This document shows positions 9,890 through 60,300 of a stretch of DNA of 64,000 bases, piece by piece; position 1 is the stretch's first letter, and each line of letters starts with the position of its first letter. A program made the translations under genes and the position numbers. The DNA lies in contig NC_091188.1 of the NCBI RefSeq assembly GCF_040958095.1, forward strand, positions 1,710,962-1,774,961, written 5' to 3'. The notes beneath the pieces were generated by a model. That model saw nothing but the letters and a program-made list of their open reading frames with translations, ran no database searches and had not been told where the DNA came from. Origin of the DNA: Procambarus clarkii. Taxonomy: Eukaryota > Arthropoda > Malacostraca > Decapoda > Cambaridae.

Positions 9890-10889
9890 TCTAATTGACA
9901 CAAAACAAATTACAAGCGGGCGCTTTGAGGAAATAATTTTCCCCCAGATGCTTTTTTGAATCTTTACAGGAAACATGAAACGAATCCTGTGAATTAAAGA
10001 GAACTGCAGCACATTTGACAGGATTCAACATTAGATTGTATTCTGTATTATATCTTTCACATATCAAGATTGCCAAAGCATCTATGGCAGGTGCGAGTTG
10101 AACTAAACCGTCAACATTACAGACAATATTGACCTTAATACTATCTATACGACAGTCAACTTGACTGGTTCTAAATTTTTCAATAATGGGTCAAGATAGC
10201 AAACTGCACCTTGTTTGACCCCATTTTGTTGTGAAAAATAATCAGAGAGGAAATTACTCCATTTCACAGTTAATTTGCATTTCTGATATATAGATATTGA
10301 GCGATGACAGGACATATGTTTCTGCTAAGCAGTTCTCTAAAAGGTTTGGCGTGTTCAACTTTGTCAAAAGCTTTGGAATCATCAAGAAACAGGGAGAGAG
10401 CAAAGCCATCTTGTGAGCTGCAGTACTGAATATGCAGACGAGGAGTCACAATAACGTGGCTGAAATATGTTGACCAAATCACACACTAGAAAGTGAAGGG
10501 ACGACGACGTTTCCGTCCGTCCTGGACCATTCTCACAATCGACTTGAGAATGGTCCAGGACGGACCGAAACGTCGTCTTCCCTTCACTTTCTAGTGTGTT
10601 TTTTTGGTCAACAGTACTGAATAGTTTCCGCCACCACGAAACTGTATAGAGTTGTTTAGTAACCAGTTTCGTATGCAAACTGAAAGTCAGAGGTGTCTAA
10701 TTCGTCAGCTAGAAAGTCATTGAATGTATAATCAAATATTTTATGTAATAGTATAATTAGGGCAATAGCTCTATAATTATCAGAAAAGGACATACAACAA
10801 GCTAGGCAGTTTTTTTTTTTTGAAAGAAAATAAGTACTGAGGTGTTTATTATTGGAGAGAAAGCCTCTAAGACACATACAGTAACCCAA
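9890..10889 (-). pseudogene. Degraded LINE reverse transcriptase, interrupted by a fold-back retroposon
   Basis: Minus-strand pieces match reverse transcriptase blocks in order: NYRAIALIILLHKIFDY, then DSKAFDKVEHAKPF (motif A region, FLDDSKAFDKV), then YNTEYNLMLNPVKCAAVLF. The frame is broken by stops and indels. A 179-bp fold-back element at 10433-10611 splits it and is flanked by a perfect 12-bp duplication cagtactgaata. The motif style matches the fragment at 46040-46450, so both may be one LINE family distinct from the intact copy. Confidence 0.75.
10433..10611 (-). mobile_element. Fold-back retroposon, copy 1 (179 bp)
   Basis: Two inverted arms contain cgacgacgtttc...gtccgtcctggaccattctc and its complement, followed by a unique tail (tcagccacgttattgtgact when read on the minus strand). 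Perfect 12-bp duplications cagtactgaata lie at 10421-10432 and 10612-10623. It sits inside an older LINE pseudogene. Confidence 0.85.
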
Positions 10890-23960: not shown

Positions 23961-24173
23961 CTAGTCAGCCAACCAAAACAGGTTTTTATATATGAATCAT
24001 TATGAACAAAAAGTGGACGTGGGCGTCCCATACTGCTCCTCCGAGGACTGACAGACACCCCCCCCCCCCCCCCCCGCGGTAATAAGAACAATAATAATAA
24101 AGAAATTATTATTAATGTCTTAAGTAAACTTTATTAGAGAACGTGAGCACGGCTGCAGGAATGATAAGACCTG

Positions 24174-24380
24174 TTGACCAGACCACACACTAGAAGTTGA
24201 AGGGACGACGACGTTTCGGTCCGTCCTGGACCATTCTCAAGTCGATTGTGAAGTCGATTGATTCTCACAATCGACTTGAGAATGGTCCAGGACGGACCGA
24301 AACGTCGTCGTCCCTTCACCTTCTATTGTGTGGTCTGGTCAACATACTTCAGCCACGTTATTGTGACTCATCGCCTGCAC
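24174..24380 (+). mobile_element. Fold-back retroposon, copy 2 (207 bp, full form)
   Basis: The element starts TTGACCAGACCACACACTAG and runs through the arm to a central segment with a partly repeated tcgattgtgaagtcgattga. It then goes back through the complementary arm and ends with the unique tail finishing actcatcgcctgcac. Perfect 13-bp duplications atgataagacctg flank it at 24161-24173 and 24381-24393. This copy best defines the family. Confidence 0.88.
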
Positions 24381-24430
24381 ATGATAAGACCTGCTTAACA
24401 GACCTGAGAGAGAGAAGTAGATACTAAGTT

Positions 24431-24606
24431 AACCAGACCACACACTAGAAGGTGAAGGGACGACGACGTTTCGGGCCGTCCTGGACCATTCACAATCGAC
24501 TTGAGAATGGTCCAAGATGGACCGAAACGTCGTCGTCCCTTCACCTTCTAGTGTGTGGTCTGGCCAACTTACTTTAGCCACGTTATTGTGACTCATCGCC
24601 TGCAAC
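24431..24606 (+). mobile_element. Fold-back retroposon, copy 3
   Basis: It has the same left arm, shortened centre, right arm and tail as copy 2, starting about 50 bases after that copy's right duplication. I see no convincing target duplication. It may be an independent insertion or a segmental duplication of copy 2. Confidence 0.8.
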
Positions 24607-24619
24607 TAGACACTGAAAC

Positions 24620-25525
24620 GACGTCAGTTTGACAGAAATGAGAAGGATGGGTAGGCTGCATGTTTCTAGGACTGCCAGAGAGCCTTTAACACAGGAACAC
24701 GTTGCACTAGTTGGGGGGGACACAGACGGGAGTTACCAGTACGTTGAGTCATTACCCGTCACTCATCTGTCGTTCATTTCCTCATCAATCGCTCGTAACT
24801 CACCCGCCACACATTACCTTATAGATCAATCGGAACTCAATCATCCGCCACTCATTCCCCCCTCACCCATCACCTGTCACTCATTCGCTCACCCGTAACT
24901 CGCACCTCATCCATCATGCACGCCGTCACTCACCGCCATCCATCACTACACATAATGTACATATATTATGCTAAGTCCTGCCAACAGAAACATATTAAAC
25001 CTCCACAAGTGTCATGTTCGTACGCCGAACATACTCAAAACTTCGTATTAGGAATCATTGTACGAAGAGAATAACATGTTGTTTTTTCAACACAAGACTC
25101 TAACACTGTCTTGCTCCAACGAGGAGGACTTTGAGTCTACTGCCTCGTTGTCATAAGCAAAATACTGTCCATAGGAATGTCACCAAACGTGTACCGGATA
25201 TGAGAGGTATGAGTACGAGGAACTAACAGAACAAAACGTCACGTTAATGTAAGAGGAAAAATAAAACAAGGGAGACATGATCGTTGCATACAAAGTAATG
25301 AAGGTAAATAATCTACGAATTTTGAAAACCTGTACACCTGTCCACTGAAGTATGACTGTATGCCACTTCATTTACCAATACGAGCCTTGATTACCTGTTT
25401 AATACTTTAAATACATTATCTAACATGCCTAATTTCTCTCGTTAATTAGGACTAGTTATTGCAATCGGACCTGAATGATTAATTATCTTTGTGTCTCAAG
25501 TTTTGGTAATTTACCAGCCAGGTGG
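24620..25525. other. Unique non-coding stretch
   Basis: A weak tcactcat-type repetition runs from 24750 to 24950. No gene or mobile element is recognised. Confidence 0.5.
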
Positions 25526-28934: not shown

Positions 28935-30525
28935 GACTTGGGGCGTGGAGGTGGTCTTGAAAGAAGACAAGGAGCTGAATGAGGCCACGACGAAGACATA
29001 CCCACATTTCCAGGTATCCAGATCCAATTCGATGGTTCACCTCATCTGCGTAATTTATGTATAAACCTCCGGCGTTCTCTTTGCCTAACCTTCGGCGTTC
29101 TCTTTCCACTGCATTGTGTGAGATTTACGCCCATCGTTAGCTCGTAAACGCTTACGACTAGCGTTCAGATTTACTAAGCTGCGTCATGGAACCATTTCTC
29201 ACGCCATCGTCTATCCGGAAATGCGTAATTCGTGGCGTATTCCTCCCCCTAGCAATACAGAGCTTGACGTGACCGTCCACCGAAGAGCAATAGTCAGAGC
29301 CAGTTCACCTGAGAGTCAGGTAAGTCAGCTCACCTGAGAGACAGGTAAGCCAGCTCACCTGAGAGACAGGTAAGTCAGAGAGAGACTAACCAATCATATC
29401 CACGCTCCAGAACAGGTGTTGAGTAGCTCCTGGAAGACACAGTGATCTATATATCCACACATTATGTTCTAGATTGCAAACCAAACACCCGACAGGGAGG
29501 CCCCATCCCCCTGCGGTGCTCTTCCCACACCCCAGACCAACCCCCACACACCCCCAGACACCAGCACCAACCCCCTACCCCTCAGACCCCCCCAGACACC
29601 AGCACCAACCCCCAACCCCCCAGATCATAGACGTACAACCCTAAAGAACACCTGACAAGCACCCCAAGGTCGAAGCGAGAACAGGAACAGAGAACAACAA
29701 TGTTCTGGAAGTCCTTCAAGGCGCTGACCTTCCTCAATGGTGCTGTCGTTGACCTGTTTCTATGTGGCTGATGTGGATCTGACTCTTTATGTTGCTGACT
29801 ACGCCGTCTATGTTTGCTGACGCTGACTGCACCTATGTTTGCTGACATAAACACCTGAACTGTCTGTCAGGTCATGATTCATATGGGTAAATCATTTATT
29901 TCAAATTTGAGGTCATGAGTTTTTAACGGTGTGGTTGACAGGAGGGGGCAGCTGTTAGTGGTTCACAGGAGGGGTGACTGCCTGTTGCAGTCGCACATAG
30001 CTTCACCGTAAACCAACACCCCCCCCCCCCCCTCCTGTAAAGCACCCTTCCCTCCCTCCCTTCCCCTTGACCCAACACCTCCTTGTGAGACAGTTTGAAC
30101 ACTAATCACAGCAACACCACCCTCGTCCGCTGCTCCCTCAGCCCCGTCAAGCCAACAATTGATGGCTTCCTCAGAGGATGCACTAACAACGCTACATGGA
30201 AATGGGCAGCAGCAGCAGCAGCAGCAGCGGCTTCAGCGCTACGTCCCGCAACCCGGCAGCCAACTACGCTGCTTCTAAATTGTCCTTAAAAAACAAATGG
30301 GAGGTAGTAAGATTCAACGTTCATCTTAAGCTTGTTATAGTGCCCGTTGCTTCCCGGTACAGGAATTGCAAACGGCAATTGACCTGAATTGCTACTGTTT
30401 AATACTCTCGGTTTGGTTTATAGGCGCCGTAACCAATTTTTATTTTCGCAGATTTGTCCATTTTTTTATATATGCTATGGGATGATCAGTCATGCAGGGG
30501 AAGAGAGTATAAGAACATCAGTGAT

Positions 30526-30601
30526 GTTGACCAGACCACACACTAGAAGGTGAAGGGACGACGATGTTTACGGTCCGTCCTGGACCATTCTCAATTCAAG
30601 C
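30526..30601 (+). mobile_element. Fold-back retroposon, copy 4 (single arm, 76 bp)
   Basis: Only the left arm is present (gttgaccagaccacacac to ggaccattctc). It is flanked by perfect 13-bp duplications gaacatcagtgat at 30513-30525 and 30602-30614. A tandem 30-bp repeat array begins about 45 bases downstream. Confidence 0.85.
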
Positions 30602-37439: not shown

Positions 37440-38105
37440 TGAAGCCCACCAAATCTCCGGGGTACAAAGTACTTTCCAGGGTGCTTAAAGACTAATAAGA
37501 AGAGCCTAGTGATCCCTTGTCCTACGTGGTTATTAAATCATTAGGGGGTCGAACCGGAATCGTCGAAGGTTGCTAATGTGGTGCCGACTTTATGAAGGGA
37601 GACAGATCACTTGTGTGACAGTATCTTCCAAGCAGCTTAATGTCTTTTGTAGGGAAATTGGTTGAATCGATCATCTTAAAAAGCCATTAATCCCCACTGA
37701 TCTTGAAACCCTCAGATTAATAAAGAATTCACAACATGGTTATACAATGAGCCGCTCGTGCTTAGCAAATTTACTCTTATTCATTTCTAGTATATTTCAG
37801 GCTGTTGATAGTGGAAATATTGCAACATGCTATATCATGACTTTAATAAAACCTTTGATAATGTATCTTATGAGAAGTTGATGAGAAAGTTAGAGGTATG
37901 TGGTATTAGCAGGGAGGGAGAGACTGACCTAAGGTGGATTAGGCTGTGGTTATTTAAAAGAAAACTGAGAGAATTGCCATAAATAGATCACAACCGACTT
38001 GAGAATGGTCCAGGACGGACCGAAACGTCGTTCGTCGTCCGTTTACTTTCTAGTGTGTGGTTTGGTCAACTTACCATAAATGGAGTTATATCCATATATA
38101 TATAT
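37440..38105 (+). pseudogene. Old LINE reverse transcriptase remnant split by a fold-back retroposon
   Basis: It carries recognisable blocks: ANVVPT, the QHGYTMSRSC finger region, DFNKTFDNVSYEKLMRKLEV (motif A) and INGVIS after the insertion at 37988-38073. Many stops and shifts mark it as old. Confidence 0.7.
37988..38073 (+). mobile_element. Fold-back retroposon, copy 5 (single arm, 86 bp)
   Basis: Only the right arm is present (cgacttgagaatggtccagg to gtgtgtggtttggtcaac). Flanking 11-bp duplications, ccataaataga and ccataaatgga, differ at one base. The surrounding LINE reading frame resumes after the insertion (INGVIS). Confidence 0.85.
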
Positions 38106-41392: not shown

Positions 41393-41850
41393 ACTTACCC
41401 AGGGGGCGTTATGTCTAATGCAACAATGTCTACAAACGTGTACATTTGTACCATAAAGTAGACATGCCTCTACCTCTACTTTATTATAAACTTAATAATT
41501 CAAGAGCAACACAGGTATAGACGGAAAAATGCATGTTTTAACAATTTAATTAAAAGTTCTACGACAAGATTTCCTAAATACTAGAAACAAAAAACACAAT
41601 CCTGAATTGCTTGGAAATCATTGAATACCTAACAGACATAAAACAAATGGTCATTGTCACAAGTGGTGTCGAGCTTGAAGGGACGTGACAAGGAAGTGAA
41701 TTAAAATGTAAAAACTGAGGATAATTGCAAAGAATGACAGGAAGAGCTTAACAAACTCCAGCCAAAGGTAGAGACATGGCCGCTACTAGAGTTCAAACCC
41801 AGCAACGGAAGATAAAGAAACTGGTAAAGGGAGACAGGAGACAGAAATAT

Positions 41851-42006
41851 GTTGACCAGACCACACACTAGAAAGTGAAGGGACGACGACGTTTCGGTCC
41901 GTCCTGGACCATTCTCAAGTCATCATTCTCAAGCCGGCTTGAGAATGGTCCAGGACGGACCGAAACGACGTCGTCTCTTCACTTTCTAGTGTGTGTGGTC
42001 TGGCCA
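41851..42006 (+). mobile_element. Fold-back retroposon, copy 6
   Basis: Both arms are present and meet at ctcaagtcatcattctcaag. The unique tail is missing. The flanks (acagaaatat and catcagaaagaata) suggest but do not prove a target duplication. Confidence 0.75.
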
Positions 42007-42320
42007 TCAGAAAGAATAAATCACTTGAAAGTGAATGCAATTTCAGCATTAACCTTGCAACAGTGTGTGGCAGGGACGTAAATGTGGATGTATATTTGTT
42101 TTGTGTAAGAAAGGGAGAGTTTGTGAACGAAAGAAAGTATTAAAGGACGAGTGACAGCGAAGAGAGAGAGAGAGAGAGAGTGTGAGGGTGGTGTGAGCTA
42201 ATAAGAGGGGGAGAGTGTGGGGGGACAGGGAGAGTAGGGTGAGAGGGGTAGCTACGACCCAGGAAGTAGACGACACCCTGACATACGACTCTATAGTACC
42301 ATGTTAAGAGAGCGCAGCCG

Positions 42321-43589: not shown

Positions 43590-44520
43590 TCATTTTTCAG
43601 ACTATTTTGTCAGCTGGAATTTGGACGGCGGCAATGTTATGGCATTTACGGCTTCGGCGGGTAGGCGGTTCCATGGGTTTATAACCCTGTGGAGTGAAAA
43701 AGAATCTCCAGTTTTCTGTTCTACATTGTGGCTTGTTGAGCCTGAGACCGTTGCTCCTTGTTTGTGTTACATCTGACCTTTTAGAAAAAAAGTAGTTTGG
43801 ATCATTATCCTACCAAATTGTTCGACGTTTTAAAAGATCCAATAAGATCAGCCTTGTCATTTCTAGTTTGAAGTGTCGTTAGCCGAGTGGCCCTCAACCG
43901 TGCCTGGTATGAGAGTTGAATTAGTTCTGGAATGAATTTTGTCACTCAAGGTTGAACTTTGTCCATAACAGATATGTCCTTATGAAGATCAGGTTTCCAT
44001 GCTTGGATGCAATAGACCAAATGGGGGATGTAATAGACCGCACCACAGATTTGTACAGATCAATCACCACCTTCCTTTTTTCTTGAAGTCAAAGGTTCTA
44101 TTCCTAGGGTTTGGCTGTGTTTGCAGACGATGAGTCACAATAACGTGGCTGAAGTATGTTGACCAGACCACACACTAGAAGGTGAAGGGACGACGACGTT
44201 TCGGTCCGTCCTGGACCATTCTCAAGTCGATTTGGCTGTATTTGTCATACTGGATCTCCTATATCTTGTGGAAACTTTCAATGATTAGTGTAGTCGGATT
44301 CCAAGGTTCCTTTCTTCATCAATATTGCAGTAAGGTAAAGATGATTTGGTAGTTGTGATGTGTACCGATATGTCCCATAATCAACGTCTTACAGGTTTTC
44401 TGTATTAAAAGTCATTTGCCAGACTTCTGACCATTTGTGCAGTTCATGTGAGGTAATATCATTTCCATTTCATTTTTTATCATAATTCATGGTGTCATCT
44501 ACAAATCTGATGATGTAGTG
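43590..44520 (-). pseudogene. Degraded CR1-like LINE C-terminal half, interrupted at 44124-44230
   Basis: Minus-strand pieces include VINPWNRLPAEAVNA (typical of the CR1 C-terminus) and GLRLNKPQCRTENW. Nearer the upstream end are NIDEERNLGIRLH-like and HKWSEVWQMTFNTENL-like blocks. The frame is shattered. Confidence 0.62.
44124..44230 (-). mobile_element. Fold-back retroposon, copy 7 (single arm plus tail, 107 bp)
   Basis: Read on the minus strand it starts in the middle of the palindrome and runs through the right arm to the unique tail, as a 5'-truncated copy would. Flanking 14-bp duplications tttggctgtgtttg and tttggctgtatttg differ at one base. It interrupts a LINE remnant. Confidence 0.82.
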
Positions 44521-45754: not shown

Positions 45755-45800
45755 ACACGACTTGAATGGTCGAGGACGGAGCGAAACTTCGTCACTTCCT
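45755..45800 (+). mobile_element. Diverged fragment of the fold-back retroposon
   Basis: The sequence cgacttgaatggtcgaggac followed by ggagcgaaacttcgtcac matches part of the right arm with several changes. It directly follows a (TA)n tract. Confidence 0.5.
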
Positions 45801-50889: not shown

Positions 50890-51955
50890 TGTAATTATAT
50901 TATTGAATAATATTTACAACTTATACTTGTGTGTAGCAGTGAGAGTGTGCTCAAAATACATTAGAAAACCATTATATATAATAGGTACAAAGATAGTGCA
51001 GAAGGGAAGGGGTCGTGGCCGATGAATAGATATAAATTAATTCATTTACACGATGTATGAATTTCTGAGGGGTGTAGGGGGGGGGGGACCGTGTATGGGC
51101 TGACAAGCGTAATACTCCGTAATTGTTTTTTTTTGGGGGGGGGGAGGGAGGGGGACCAGCCTGGAGATTACTTTCGACATGGCGAGGAAACTTTTGAGGA
51201 AACTGAGAGTGTTTGGGTAGCACTTGAGAAGTGTACATTTGGAGGTGGTATAGCAAGTATACTGTAAGCAAGTATACCTCTTGCTTACAAGTAGTTTTCA
51301 GGCGTAACTAAGGAAGATTATTAATAATATGTAACGGTATTATATAATATTAATGTTTAATATTATTGATTTGTATTATAAAATATTAATATATTATATT
51401 AATTTGTGCTATAAAATATTAATATTTTATGTTATTTATTTGTATTATAAAATAATAATATTTAATATTTATTTGTATATTATAATTTTAATTTTGAATA
51501 ATAATAATATTTAATTGTAATATTTATTAATGTTAAATATCATATTGTAATATAATTATTAACATTCACTAACATTACTTCATTACTTAGGAAAATTTAA
51601 TGTTATTATTTATTAGAATTAAGTTTATTTAATAATAATAATATTTAATAATGTAATTACTATTATTATTTATGCTGCACTTGTTATGCACTTTTATGTA
51701 TTTTTATTTCTGAAGTAATGCTGGGATTCTATATTTTGATTGTAAACTATTGTGTGGGATTATCCATACATTTACAAGATTTATGTATTGCTTAAGTGAA
51801 AATATGTTCTGGTCGGCAGACTGTTGCCAAAATGCGTTGCATTATTTTGCGCATTTCACGCGATTCGAACAAAATTTGACGAAATTCGAACGATTCGTCA
51901 AAATTGGTGTGTTGGTGCCAGAGACGAATTACCTGGAGGTGACGTGTCACGCCTG
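50885..51955. other. AT-rich stretch left of the LINE
   Basis: From 51300 to 51700 it is almost pure A/T with repeated aatattaat and attataaaata words. It may be scaffold-attachment-like DNA or an old AT-rich transposon. No gene is visible. Confidence 0.5.
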
Positions 51956-51956
51956 C

Positions 51957-52024
<68 letters not shown>

Positions 52025-54715
52025 AGGAACACACACATAAGGAAAGAGAGGGAAGGTAGAGGAGGAGGCGGAGTGGCCCTACTCATGAGAAGGGAATGGA
52101 GTTTTAAGGAGATGGCCATCCCGGGCTGTGAGGAGTTCAGAGACTACATAGCAGGCACCATAACAATGGGAGGACCAAGAATAGTAGTAGCAGTAATATA
52201 CAACCCTCCACCAAATGACAGGAGACCCAGTCAAGAGTATGAAAACAACAACAAGGCAGTTAACACTATAATTGAGAGGGCAGCCTCTGCTGCCTGTAGA
52301 AATAGATCCCACCTGCTCATCATGGGCGACTTCAATCACGGAAAGATTGACTGGGAGAACAAGGAACCGCATGGAGGCGAGGATACGTGGAGAGCCAAAC
52401 TATTGGAGGTAGTGACAAGCAACTTTTTAACCCAGCATGTCGGAGAACCCACAAGGATGAGAGGCAATGACGAACCAGCGAGACTCGACCTAGTCTTCAC
52501 TCTGAACGACTCCGACATAAGAGAAATCGGTTTTGAGGACCCAGTAGGAATGAGCGACCACAGTGTACTGGTGTTTGAGTACTTGATTGAAGAAGGGTTA
52601 TTGAACTCGAGGAGGGATACCGAAACCAAAAGGTTAGCATACCGAAAGGGAAACTATGAGGGGATAAGAAAATTCCTAACAGATATAGCATGGGAAACAG
52701 AGCTCAGGGGAAAGACGGCCCAAGATATGATGGATTACATCACGCAGAAGTGCAAGGACGCAGCAAACAAGTTTGTCCCAGTCCAAAAGGAAAACAGAGA
52801 AATGAAGATGAGAAACCCATGGTTTAATCAAAGATGTAGGCTAGCTAAGCAGCAAAGTAAAAGGGCATGGAGAAACTATAGGAATAACAGGACACTGGAG
52901 AGCAGAGAAAGATACCAGAATGCCAGGAATGAATATGTCAGGATGAGAAGAGAGGCAGAAAGACAATACGAAAATGACATCGCAAGCAAGGCAAAGACTC
53001 AGCCTAAATTGTTGCATAGCCACATTAGGAGAAAAACGACAGTAAAGGAACAGGTTATGAGATTAAGGATAGGGGCGGAAGGATTCACTACAAATGACAA
53101 GGAAGTGTGTGAGGAATTGAATAAGAAATTCCAGGAGGTCTTCACCTTAGAACAAGGAGAAATTCCAGAGGTAAGTGAGGGAATAGCTAACCAGGAACCA
53201 CTGGAAGAGTTTGAGATTACCAGTGGGGAAGTAAGGAAGTGTTTACTAGAGTTGGACGTGACGAAGGCTATAGGCCCAGATGGAATCTCCCCTTGGGTTC
53301 TAAAGGAAGGAGCAAGAGAACTGAGCCTACCACTCTCCATAGTGTATAACAAATCACTGGCAACAGGGGAACTGCCAGATATTTGGAAAGCAGCTAACGT
53401 AGTCCCGATATACAAGAAAGGGGATAGACAGGAGGCACTGAACTACAGGCCAGTGTCCCTAACCTGCATACCATGCAAGCTGATGGAGAAGATTGTGCGA
53501 AAAAAACTAGTGGAGCATCTGGAGCGAAGGAACTTTGTAACACAGCATCAACATGGGTTCAGGGATGGCAGGTCCTGCCTCACAGGGTTACTTGAATTCT
53601 ACGACCAGGCAACAAAAATAAGGCAAGAAAGAGAAGGGTGGGCAGACTGCATATTTTTGGATTGTCAGAAAGCCTTTGATACAGTGCCACACAAGAGGCT
53701 AGTGCGAAAGCTGGAGATGCAGGCTGGAGTGAGAGGGAAGGTACTCCGGTGGATAGAGGAATACCTAAGCAACAGGAGACAACGAGTCTGTGTGAGGGGT
53801 GAGGTCTCAGATTGGCGAGACTTCACAAGTGGAGTCCCGCAGGGGTCAGTCCTTGGACCTATACTGTTTCTGGTATATGTAAATGATCTCCCAGAGGGTA
53901 TAGATTCGTTCCTCTCAATGTTTGCCGACGATGCAAAAATTATGAGGAGGATTGAAACAGAGGATGATAGTAGGAGGCTACAAGATGACCTGGATAGACT
54001 GAGTGAATGGTCCAACAAATGGCTGTTGAAGTTCAACCCGAGTAAATGCAAAGTAATGAAACTAGGCAGTGGAAACAGGAGGCCAGGCACAGGATACAGA
54101 ATAGGAGATGAAGTACTTAATGAAACAGACAGAGAGAAAGATCTAGGAGTTGATATCACACCAAACCTGTCTCCTGAAGCCCACATAAAGAGAATAACGT
54201 CTGCGGCATATGCGAGGCTGGCTAACATCAGAACGGCGTTCAGGAACCTGTGTAAGGAATCATTCAGAATCTTGTACACCACATATGTAAGACCAATCCT
54301 GGAGTATGCGGCCCCAGCATGGAGCCCGTACCTTGTCAAGCACAAGACGAAGCTGGAAAAAGTCCAAAGGTATGCTACTAGACTAGTCCCAGAACTAAGA
54401 GGCATGAGTTATGAGGAAAGGCTGCGGGAAATGCACCTTACGACACTGGAAGACAGAAGAGTAAGGGGGGACATGATCACAACCTACAAAATCCTCAGGG
54501 GAATCGACCGGGTAAACAAGGATGAACTATTCAACACTGGTGGGACGCGAACAAGGGGACACAGGTGGAAGCTGAGTACCCAAATGAGCCACAGAGACGT
54601 TAGAAAGAACTTTTTCAGTGTCAGAGTAGTTAGTAAATGGAATGCATTAGGAAGTGATGTGGTGGAGGCTGACTCCATACACAGTTTCAAATGTAGATAT
54701 GATAGAGCCCAATAG
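51824..54715 (+). CDS. Non-LTR retrotransposon ORF2: truncated endonuclease plus reverse transcriptase (CR1/Jockey-like)
   Basis: This 963-codon frame is uninterrupted. The first ~75 codons read through unrelated sequence and a CT/AC microsatellite, so the real element begins near 52049 (GRGGGGVALLMRREW), inside an APE-type endonuclease. Endonuclease motifs kept are MGDFNHGKIDW (about residue 165) and GMSDHSVLVF (about 242). The reverse transcriptase follows: NYRPVSL, QHGFRDGRSC, motif A FLDCQKAFDTVPHKRL, motif B SGVPQGSVLGPILFLVYVND, catalytic FADDAK, and the thumb-side LGVDI. The C-terminal domain includes RPILEYAAPAWSPY, KLEKVQRYATRLVPELRG, and a last block with FFSVRVVSKWNALG. The stop is TAG at 54713. 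ORF1 and the N-terminal endonuclease are missing, as in a 5'-truncated insertion. The open frame suggests recent arrival. The clade assignment (CR1 group within Jockey-like LINEs) is inference from motif style. Confidence 0.9.
51959..52022. repeat. (CT)n(AC)n microsatellite at the 5' edge of the intact LINE
   Basis: CT then AC tract, followed by acataaggaacacacacata and LINE sequence. Confidence 0.95.
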
Positions 54716-59635: not shown

Positions 59636-60165
59636 TTAGTACGCCGTGGAGGTGGGCGGTAAGACGTGCGTCAAGCCGCCCACAGGACTGTGTTCGTTGC
59701 TGGGCGGCGTGGGCATCCCCGCGGCACTCTGACACACGTACCATTCACTTAGATTAGTTGAGTGTCCCCCGACGGCCGTGTTCCCGCCACCGCTGCCACC
59801 CGTGTTGCCGCCGCCCGCGCCGCCGCCGCCCGCGCCACCCGCCCCCGCCCCGCCCAGACCCGAGCCGGAGACGAGCGCCGTCTGACCCGTGTTGGACGAA
59901 GACACGAGCGAAGACGACGTTGAGGTGCCGTTAGTGGTGGTGGAGTCGTCGCTCTCGTAGCCAGAGCCCGAGGGCGGCGGGGACTTGCCGTGGACCTTCA
60001 TGTGCTTCCTGAGGGAGGACGGGTGGGTGTAGGACTTGTCGCAGCCTCGCACCTTGCAGTTGTAGGGCTTGTCGGACGTGTGGACGTGCGAGTGTTTCTT
60101 CCTGTCGGAGGAGTTGGCGAAGCGTCGGTCGCAGCCCTCATACTCGCACCGGAACGGCTTCTCTC
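59636..60165 (-). CDS. zic: Zic / odd-paired family zinc-finger transcription factor, terminal coding exon (partial gene)
   Basis: Zic proteins are nuclear DNA-binding regulators of segmentation, neural and mesodermal patterning (odd-paired in insects). The exon encodes 175 residues plus a split codon. It opens with the linker EKPF, then finger 4 (C-x4-C-x12-H-x3-H, containing [16 protein letters not shown]), the linker TSDKPYN, and finger 5 ([18 protein letters not shown]). These last two fingers are close to invariant in the family. A Ser/Thr-rich stretch and a Gly/Ala run follow, then the conserved C-terminal motif SEWYVCQ and the stop (TAA, complement of 59636-59638). The acceptor reads tttgtgtttcag on the minus strand, and the exon starts at phase 1 inside the Gly codon of the TGEKP linker. 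Fingers 1-3 and the start codon must lie upstream, beyond 60165; I could not find them in this window. The exon is clearly GC-richer than its surroundings. Family identity is very secure; which Zic paralogue this is cannot be told. Confidence 0.96.
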
Positions 60166-60300
60166 CTGAAACACAAAACTCACATTACTCACAATTGAAA
60201 GATGGCGGACCTGTAAACATTAATTCTCGACCATTTTTCCGAAACCAAAAAACGGTAATGAAATACATAGAAGTCATACATATATATATATATATATTAT
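60166..60300 (-). promoter_or_regulatory. 3' end of the last Zic intron, with splice acceptor
   Basis: The acceptor AG is at 60166-60167 on the minus strand, preceded by a T-rich tract (gttttgtgtttcag). Further into the intron is a short (TA)n at 60281-60298. The intron continues leftwards on the gene strand towards 64000 with no recognisable zinc-finger exon. Confidence 0.7.

Follow-up and report, generated by a model that had tools for sequence, protein, structure and literature searches.

The fold-back repeats found in the window (the whole 64-kb stretch of Procambarus clarkii DNA analyzed here) very probably represent short inserted copies of the leader at the 5' end of a Penelope-like element (PLE), a member of the family that we call PLE-C, made by priming on both target strands at two start sites within the leader RNA and by joining of the resulting ends. 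What is copied is the pLTR of a PLE, a leader of 80 nt to which a 35-nt tail may be attached, and its mirror image is formed at each insertion. Penelope elements make up a mean of 2.3% in Astacidea according to the available text of PMC10454600.

A 20-mer of the arm matches the window 11 times at up to 3 mismatches and none of 100 shuffles, and BLAST of the window places the arm at eight positions, A to H, in keeping with the preliminary description, which had reported a palindromic arm in at least seven copies. Copies A (10430..10618, minus strand; exact 12-bp target duplication), B (24161..24393, plus strand) and C (24425..24605, plus strand; an insertion separate from the adjoining B) consist of a double arm and the tail, and F (41844..42010, minus strand) is a double arm whose right end runs a few bases into the tail. 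Single arms without tail are found in D (30524..30597, minus strand; exact 13-bp duplication) and E (37988..38074, plus strand; 11-bp duplication with 1 mismatch), a single arm with tail in G (44120..44234, minus strand; 14-bp duplication with 1 mismatch), and a 36-bp relic of the arm core in H (45758..45793, plus strand; BLAST E 5e-7). That full copies carry a non-palindromic tail, as had been proposed, is borne out by a pattern search for the tail end, which is present in A (3 mismatches), B (0), C (1) and G (2); the same search gives three more 3-mismatch matches elsewhere in the window, about the number expected by chance. By eye, A, E and perhaps G adjoin RT-coding-like remnants and are possibly nested insertions.

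Copy B displays the full anatomy. The left copy of its target duplication, ATGATAAGACCTG (24161..24173), is an exact 13-bp repeat of 24381..24393 and leads into the left arm (24172..24251, minus strand), which we read as leader cDNA without tail: 80 nt long and 98% complementary to the right arm, it has its outer end TGTTGACC at putative start site 1, and the first two bases of this end also belong to the duplication. The 13-nt centre AGTCGATTGATTC (24252..24264) is a filler unlike those of 36 other copies compared. The right arm (24265..24344, plus strand) is the 80-nt leader from TCACAATCGAC to GGTCAACA and includes a hammerhead-like motif of the PLE leader (24272..24310, plus strand), with the core UUGAGAA, a stem II and GAAACGUC, and without stem III. 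The tail search locates the optional 35-nt tail at 24345..24379 (plus strand), ending in CGCCTGCA at putative start site 2, and the right copy of the duplication closes the insertion at 24381..24393.

The window also holds a non-LTR retrotransposon frame, open over 971 aa, that includes endonuclease and RT (51800-54715, plus strand; RVT_1 9e-34) and a C2H2 zinc-finger exon (59639-60184, minus strand), which we take to resemble part of a ZIC/odd-paired gene. Minisatellites and dinucleotide arrays are very dense, with 129 Tandem Repeats Finder rows in 64 kb.

The five target duplications reported earlier, those of A, B, D, E and G, are real: re-measured against a null in which the top score is 6 among 42 mismatched flank pairs and 99% of 4,000 random position pairs score at most 7, they score 12, 13, 13, 8 and 11, with lengths of 12, 13, 13, 11 and 14 bp. 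The best register for E lies 3 bases off the one first given, with length and mismatches unchanged. The duplication of C (11 bp, 2 mismatches, score 5) falls within the null and is decayed, and F offers 6 bp only and no clear duplication. Among 39 double-arm copies scored (36 fetched loci plus A, B and C, with F excluded), 34 exceed 99% of 1,482 mismatched pairs (99% point 7, maximum 13), at lengths of 10 bp (3 copies), 11 (4), 12 (5), 13 (11, the mode), 14 (6), 15 (1), 16 (3) and 17 bp (1), values that may count up to 5 bases common to the element end; the remaining 5 of the 39 have no duplication above the 99% null, and the boundary of C was mis-set in that run. Further loci have duplications of 12 bp (L103), 11 bp (L106), 13 bp exact (L111), 15 bp (L112 and L113) and 16 bp (L114). 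Retroposition with variable target duplications, as first suggested, is thereby upheld, and the lengths of 10-17 bp and the existence of single arms differ from the fixed length and always intact ends that the preliminary description had named as the mark of a DNA transposon. Its derivation of single arms by arm loss does not stand: D and E, without tail, and G, with tail, are primary insertions, since each has its own duplication.

The genome searched comprises 4.03 Gb in 2,308 contigs. A first sample was drawn from 2,877 first-look candidates for copy B: the best 40 underwent scoring, and the 39 besides B were fetched; without the segmental duplicates L020, L042 and L046, this gives 36 loci and B, that is, 37 copies. 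As best matches to B, they favor short centres, TCACA ends and a right tail; the selection should not conceal two-tailed copies, which would score equally. Each copy has the layout left arm, centre, right arm and tail, and the centre fillers, of 3-28 nt (median 13), are distinct in 37/37. An inherited fold-back would keep one centre, and we therefore conclude that the fold-back arises at each insertion, so that neither the fold-back as the copied unit nor the ~75-bp hairpin as an inherited unit, both implied by the preliminary description, can be retained: the hairpin is the insertion product. The fillers are largely built from scraps of arm sequence, with 310 of the 453 bases in the 32 fillers of at least 7 nt lying within arm 6-mers (shuffled mean 47, maximum 111 over 1,000 shuffles). 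In this sample, the outer left end falls at the exact base of TGTTGACC in 32/37 copies, the right end at CGCCTGCA in 35/37, and the inner ends at the exact base of TCACAATCGAC (TCACA) in 27/37 left and 33/37 right arms. The flank after the tail end TGCA prefers (C/T)AT, with A at +2 in 27/37 and T at +3 in 24/37, either because the endonuclease favors this sequence or because microhomology assists priming. At site 1, microhomology with the primer was sought and is not clear.

The link to Penelope-like elements, offered at first as a guess, is supported: in L111 and L112 the arm is the end of an RT/GIY-YIG element. The arms of L103 continue upstream as CTATTTATTGCCTGTCTYTACCTCCTCA, and this extension together with the arm start occurs at 2,088 places at up to 2 mismatches (0 for the reversed control), the places listed including inverted pairs 44 bp to 4 kb apart. 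In L111, of which 4.8 kb were fetched, an exact 13-bp duplication and an inverted arm with tail accompany an inverted 1.2-kb PLE 3' part that shares 97.7% identity with the direct copy over 1,210 bp. The direct PLE, whose 3' end is the pLTR arm, has a 416-aa open frame that extends from the RT motif YVDDIF across the GIY-YIG region; further upstream the ORF lies in another frame, so that the copy is broken. From the RT motif to the GIY-YIG end, this frame aligns collinearly with a PLE ORF of 792 aa in the same genome (40% identity over 339 aa), which matches the Pfam models RVT_1 (2.1e-11) and GIY-YIG (2.2e-4, 21.9 bits vs a cut-off of 22.6). The L111 frame alone matches RVT_1 only (0.017), without a GIY-YIG match, and L112 has a GIY-YIG match at 2.4e-4 and 21.8 bits, 0.8 bit below the cut-off. 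L112, L113 and L114 are shorter versions of the L111 design, and across insertions the fold-back design spans ~180 bp to 4 kb. Judged by ORF, inverted pLTR, tail and duplication, the fold-backs are the product of a Penelope-like element. The search for a partner sharing the tail has thus succeeded in part, in that a coding family with leader and tail exists (L111 and L112), whose copies obtained are all frameshifted or partial, none of them intact. By eye, the centre of the 4-kb PLE-C copy (L111 ~1409-1668) holds a nested, tRNA-derived-looking (SINE-like) repeat.

Two other PLE families were encountered. Arms beside the GIY-YIG loci L050 and L064 were considered as the partner and dropped: the arms are diverged, and the PLEs belong to PLE-A, an abundant intact family whose one copy examined whole (L110) is without the PLE-C leader. 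This copy (L110:1274-5425; genome C5:36546800-36553200) has an open 792-aa RT/GIY-YIG ORF, lies beside a TA repeat and is accompanied by a truncated copy inverted head to head, with 99.85% identity over 1,329 bp; 150/150 scored PLE-A places match at E <1e-51, many as minus/plus pairs. The third family, PLE-B (L103:3020-3150, L057, L056 and L076), has its own hammerhead-like leader and an ORF start, in L103, of MSFGELLFQLSPDAKK, and several of its copies terminate, by eye, at TA repeats.

In the double-arm copies examined, the tail is confined to one side of the fold-back, F apart. A second tail on the left side is found in 0/37 copies of the first, query-selected sample, and we therefore place beside it a second sample, not chosen for the tail: 20 loci from the first 21 exact arm-core places listed on contig C1, two of these places being one locus, which after removal of L120, L122, L123, L133, L134 and L137 as segmental duplicates (L123 merged with L121 by eye) comprise 14 insertions. 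Seven of these are double-arm (L118, L121, L124, L126, L127, L128 and L130), and in 7/7 tail sequence is present on one side only, the tail of L121 ending at position 100 of 115 and the arm opposite the tail in L130 ending at 54, within the arm. The tail is likewise one-sided in 6/6 of L103, L106, L111, L112, L113 and L114. None of the double-arm copies examined carries it on both sides; F is without a full tail, and the diverged L078 arm was left out of the double-arm count. Duplications in the second sample are exact in L118 (12 bp), L126 (13 bp) and L128 (13 bp), have one mismatch in L121 (13 bp) and L127 (17 bp), are ambiguous in L124 and without a clear instance in L130; L136 is a single arm with an exact 13-bp duplication. 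Six further insertions (L119, L125, L129, L131, L132 and L135), fetched at their arm-side ends, run at least 38 nt further upstream. The inner ends of the short arms lie at leader positions 1-7 except in L128, whose left arm is only 44 nt long; both arms of L130 extend ~25 nt further up, and L124 contains an additional partial copy. The extra partial copy of L124 and the 44-nt arm of L128 mean that two clean cDNAs are not the whole story.

Genome-wide, the 37-nt arm core occurs 35,431 + 35,313 = 70,744 times and the tail (35 places) 17,894 + 17,617 = 35,511 times, each at up to 3 mismatches and each with a control of 0. The tail to arm-core ratio of 0.50 fits one tail per arm pair, as a figure that also counts single and long copies and is no proof. 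Among 100 exact arm cores listed, 14 pairs lie at most 100 bp apart, all of them head to head (minus then plus), and among 100 exact tails listed (0 mismatches only) none lies less than 1 kb from another.

The anatomy of the insertions, their duplications and distinct fillers, the one-sided tail, the concordance of the arms described below and the PLE reading frame are all visible in the sequence. From them we infer a course of events in which staggered cutting, priming, the RNA start and joining are the reconstructed steps and a PLE protein the presumed agent. The PLE RNA would start at the initiator TCACA in the pLTR and carry the hammerhead-like motif. The PLE protein would make a staggered cut in the target, the breaks in the two strands lying ~10-17 bp apart, and reverse transcription would begin within the RNA from each of the 3' ends: at site 1 (following GGUCAACA) from one end and, 35 nt downstream of it, at site 2 (following CGCCUGCA) from the other. 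Both cDNAs would extend to the RNA 5' end, giving arms of ~80 and ~115 nt, whose ends would be joined head to head with a short templated filler, and gap filling would yield the target duplication. A single arm would result where only one side was extended and joined, and read-through RNAs from upstream PLE sequence would give the longer versions, up to 4 kb with ORF. A TATA-like TATTTAT begins 29 bp before the A of TCA in TCACAATCGAC, a distance typical of a TATA box and its initiator, so that the short arms probably end at the RNA start; their inner ends would then mark the RNA 5' end at TCACA. The leader ATG is at position 18 and its frame stops after 14 codons, and the start sites lie at +63 and +98 of this ATG. 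The 5' heptamer TCACAAT (24265-24271) is perfectly complementary to ATTGTGA in the tail (24360-24366), by which the RNA 5' end might pair near start site 2.

The arms of one insertion agree with each other beyond expectation. A diagnostic dinucleotide is the same in both arms in 33/40 copies, a set to which A, C and F belong (permutations give 11 on average and 21 at most), and the arms differ at 72 positions within copies (permuted mean 107, minimum 93). The arms of one copy differ by 2.3% on average and 9/40 pairs are identical, so that part of the concordance is recent. Such concordance is what a common template would leave, and it could also arise if two RNAs were transcribed at a single source locus or if gene conversion later acted between the arms. 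We give somewhat less than an even chance to the reading that one RNA is held on a PLE protein dimer, each protomer starting obligatorily at its own site on opposite DNA ends; a single RNA so held would explain the strictly one-sided tail of the genomic copies. If this were true, the fold-back would be the regular product of PLE integration and the tens of thousands of leader insertions its fossil record. A serious possibility, if on balance improbable, is a compatible variant of the same scheme in which two RNAs template the two arms and the one-sided tail follows from the geometry of the DNA ends. It would account for the 7/40 copies that are discordant at the diagnostic bases (for example, CACCTT vs CACTTT in L016), but the 33 concordant copies speak against it unless both RNAs came from one source locus or the arms were converted.

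Arm concordance would also be expected if one cDNA snapped back on itself, on an antisense template, and the second arm were copied from the first, as has been suggested for Penelope of Adineta. Head-to-head repeats and palindromic junctions in Adineta were read as such self-priming in the accessible part of PMC3846280, and the centre of F is, by eye, palindromic and without a loop. Yet a self-copied arm would share its start site with the first and the tail would stand on both sides or on neither, so that self-priming is contradicted by the one-sided tail observed in all double-arm copies examined but F, and most centres hold filler of scrambled arm pieces; we consider it quite unlikely.

The hammerhead-like motif reads CGAC-UUGAGAA-U-GGUCC-AGGAC-GGACC-GAAACGUC-GUCG, without stem III; helix III is usually absent from PLE hammerheads, as stated in the available text of PMC6155905. 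The 39-mer folds into the expected hammerhead-like shape by minimum energy (z -0.8), which the L079 and PLE-B versions do not reach, and the fold of the whole 115-nt leader is not better than shuffles (z 0.37). The motif lies at the leader ATG, a position that agrees with the pLTR/ORF junction where PLEs carry their minimal hammerhead, and the predicted cleavage site would lie 25 nt from the A of the ATG. The core UUGAGAA differs from CUGANGA at two bases, with C3 and G8 replaced by U and A, possibly as a compensated pair; in the accessible part of PMC11167929, the double change C3G/G8C is partly rescued. PLE-B (L103, L057 and L076) has the same core with different stems, and in an alignment of six PLE-B and PLE-C rows, 47/48 cells are paired; 0/500 shuffles reach the alignment's percentage paired, its 9 doubly changed cells or its covariation score, 239/500 reach the three doubly changed pairs and 477/500 the number of pair types, the six rows being in effect two lineages because rows within a family are related. 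Variation in the hammerhead columns (31/3118) is only slightly lower than in the rest (40/3056) and decides nothing. Rfam at gathering scores gives no match in the whole window, and in E-value mode positions 24100-24650 give no hammerhead and 10 matches, all of them to microRNA hairpin models below gathering scores, such as a long hairpin would yield.

A hammerhead-like motif within a short repeat also invites the reading that the family is a hammerhead retrozyme or circular-RNA element merely parasitic on the PLE, and the available text of PMC7229834 lists crustaceans among the sources of small type I retrozyme-like repeats. The likeness to metazoan retrozymes extends to short repeats with a type I-like hammerhead; as described there, retrozymes are tandem repeats of 150-450 bp with circular RNA, whereas the window contains no tandem array of the unit. 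The insertions, moreover, end at the start sites and the initiator and not at the predicted cleavage site, and the core departs from the consensus without an Rfam hammerhead match, which makes this reading very unlikely. A transposase-mobilized fold-back DNA transposon or MITE would place inverted arms between target duplications, but its likelihood is practically negligible given duplications of 10-17 bp instead of a fixed length, ends unequal by the 35-nt tail, an interior that is not inherited (37/37 fillers distinct), single arms with duplications of their own and an arm that is the end of an RT/GIY-YIG element.

How PLEs integrate is an open question, to which this family contributes tens of thousands of short, readable end products. 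The insertions point to both-strand priming in vivo, at one site per side, on a common template and with end joining by filler, and both the leader RNA and its two start sites are of a size that permits direct testing. Two arm patterns have no exact match in viral contigs, a collection from which records of this or a near genome may be omitted; six sequence strings have no occurrence in the literature searched, and no title in that literature, its papers available in part, describes this fold-back family.

In LINE-1 twin priming, the second strand end also primes on the RNA, which gives an inversion. There each cDNA covers a separate part of the RNA; in the present insertions both would span one leader to its 5' end, from two fixed sites. 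The closest parallels are other PLEs. In vitro, according to the available text of PMC11167929, a PLE protein cuts and extends both strands from two internal start sites that bound the tail, with no difference in start site between the strands; one full-length PLE protein was studied, and later integration steps are described there as still to be validated. Like the element of that study, Anolis PAc of the Penelope/Poseidon clade, the present leader has its ATG where stem II begins, preceded by the C3/G8 positions, and two RT start sites bounding the tail, and both DNA strands would likewise be cut and extended. The start sites of PAc lie 111-118 bp into the ORF vs +63/+98 of the ATG here, and, unlike PAc, the crayfish leader has U/A at C3/G8, an ATG frame that stops after 14 codons and, in genomic copies, one start site per side. 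Penelope of Adineta vaga, as far as the accessible part of PMC3846280 goes, resembles the present insertions in its head-to-head inverted pLTRs, with a 31-bp tail optionally on one of them, in its target duplication (8-10 bp) and in its TATA box and initiator. The Adineta insertions are full elements with a pLTR of 181-218 bp and low copy number, whereas here there are tens of thousands of arms, many insertions hold only the 80- and 115-nt leader, and the filler is templated. The new point is that the genomic copies look strictly one-sided in their start site, and it is in this one-sidedness, together with the size and number of the leader-only insertions, the templated junctions and the U/A core, that the family differs from known PLE products.
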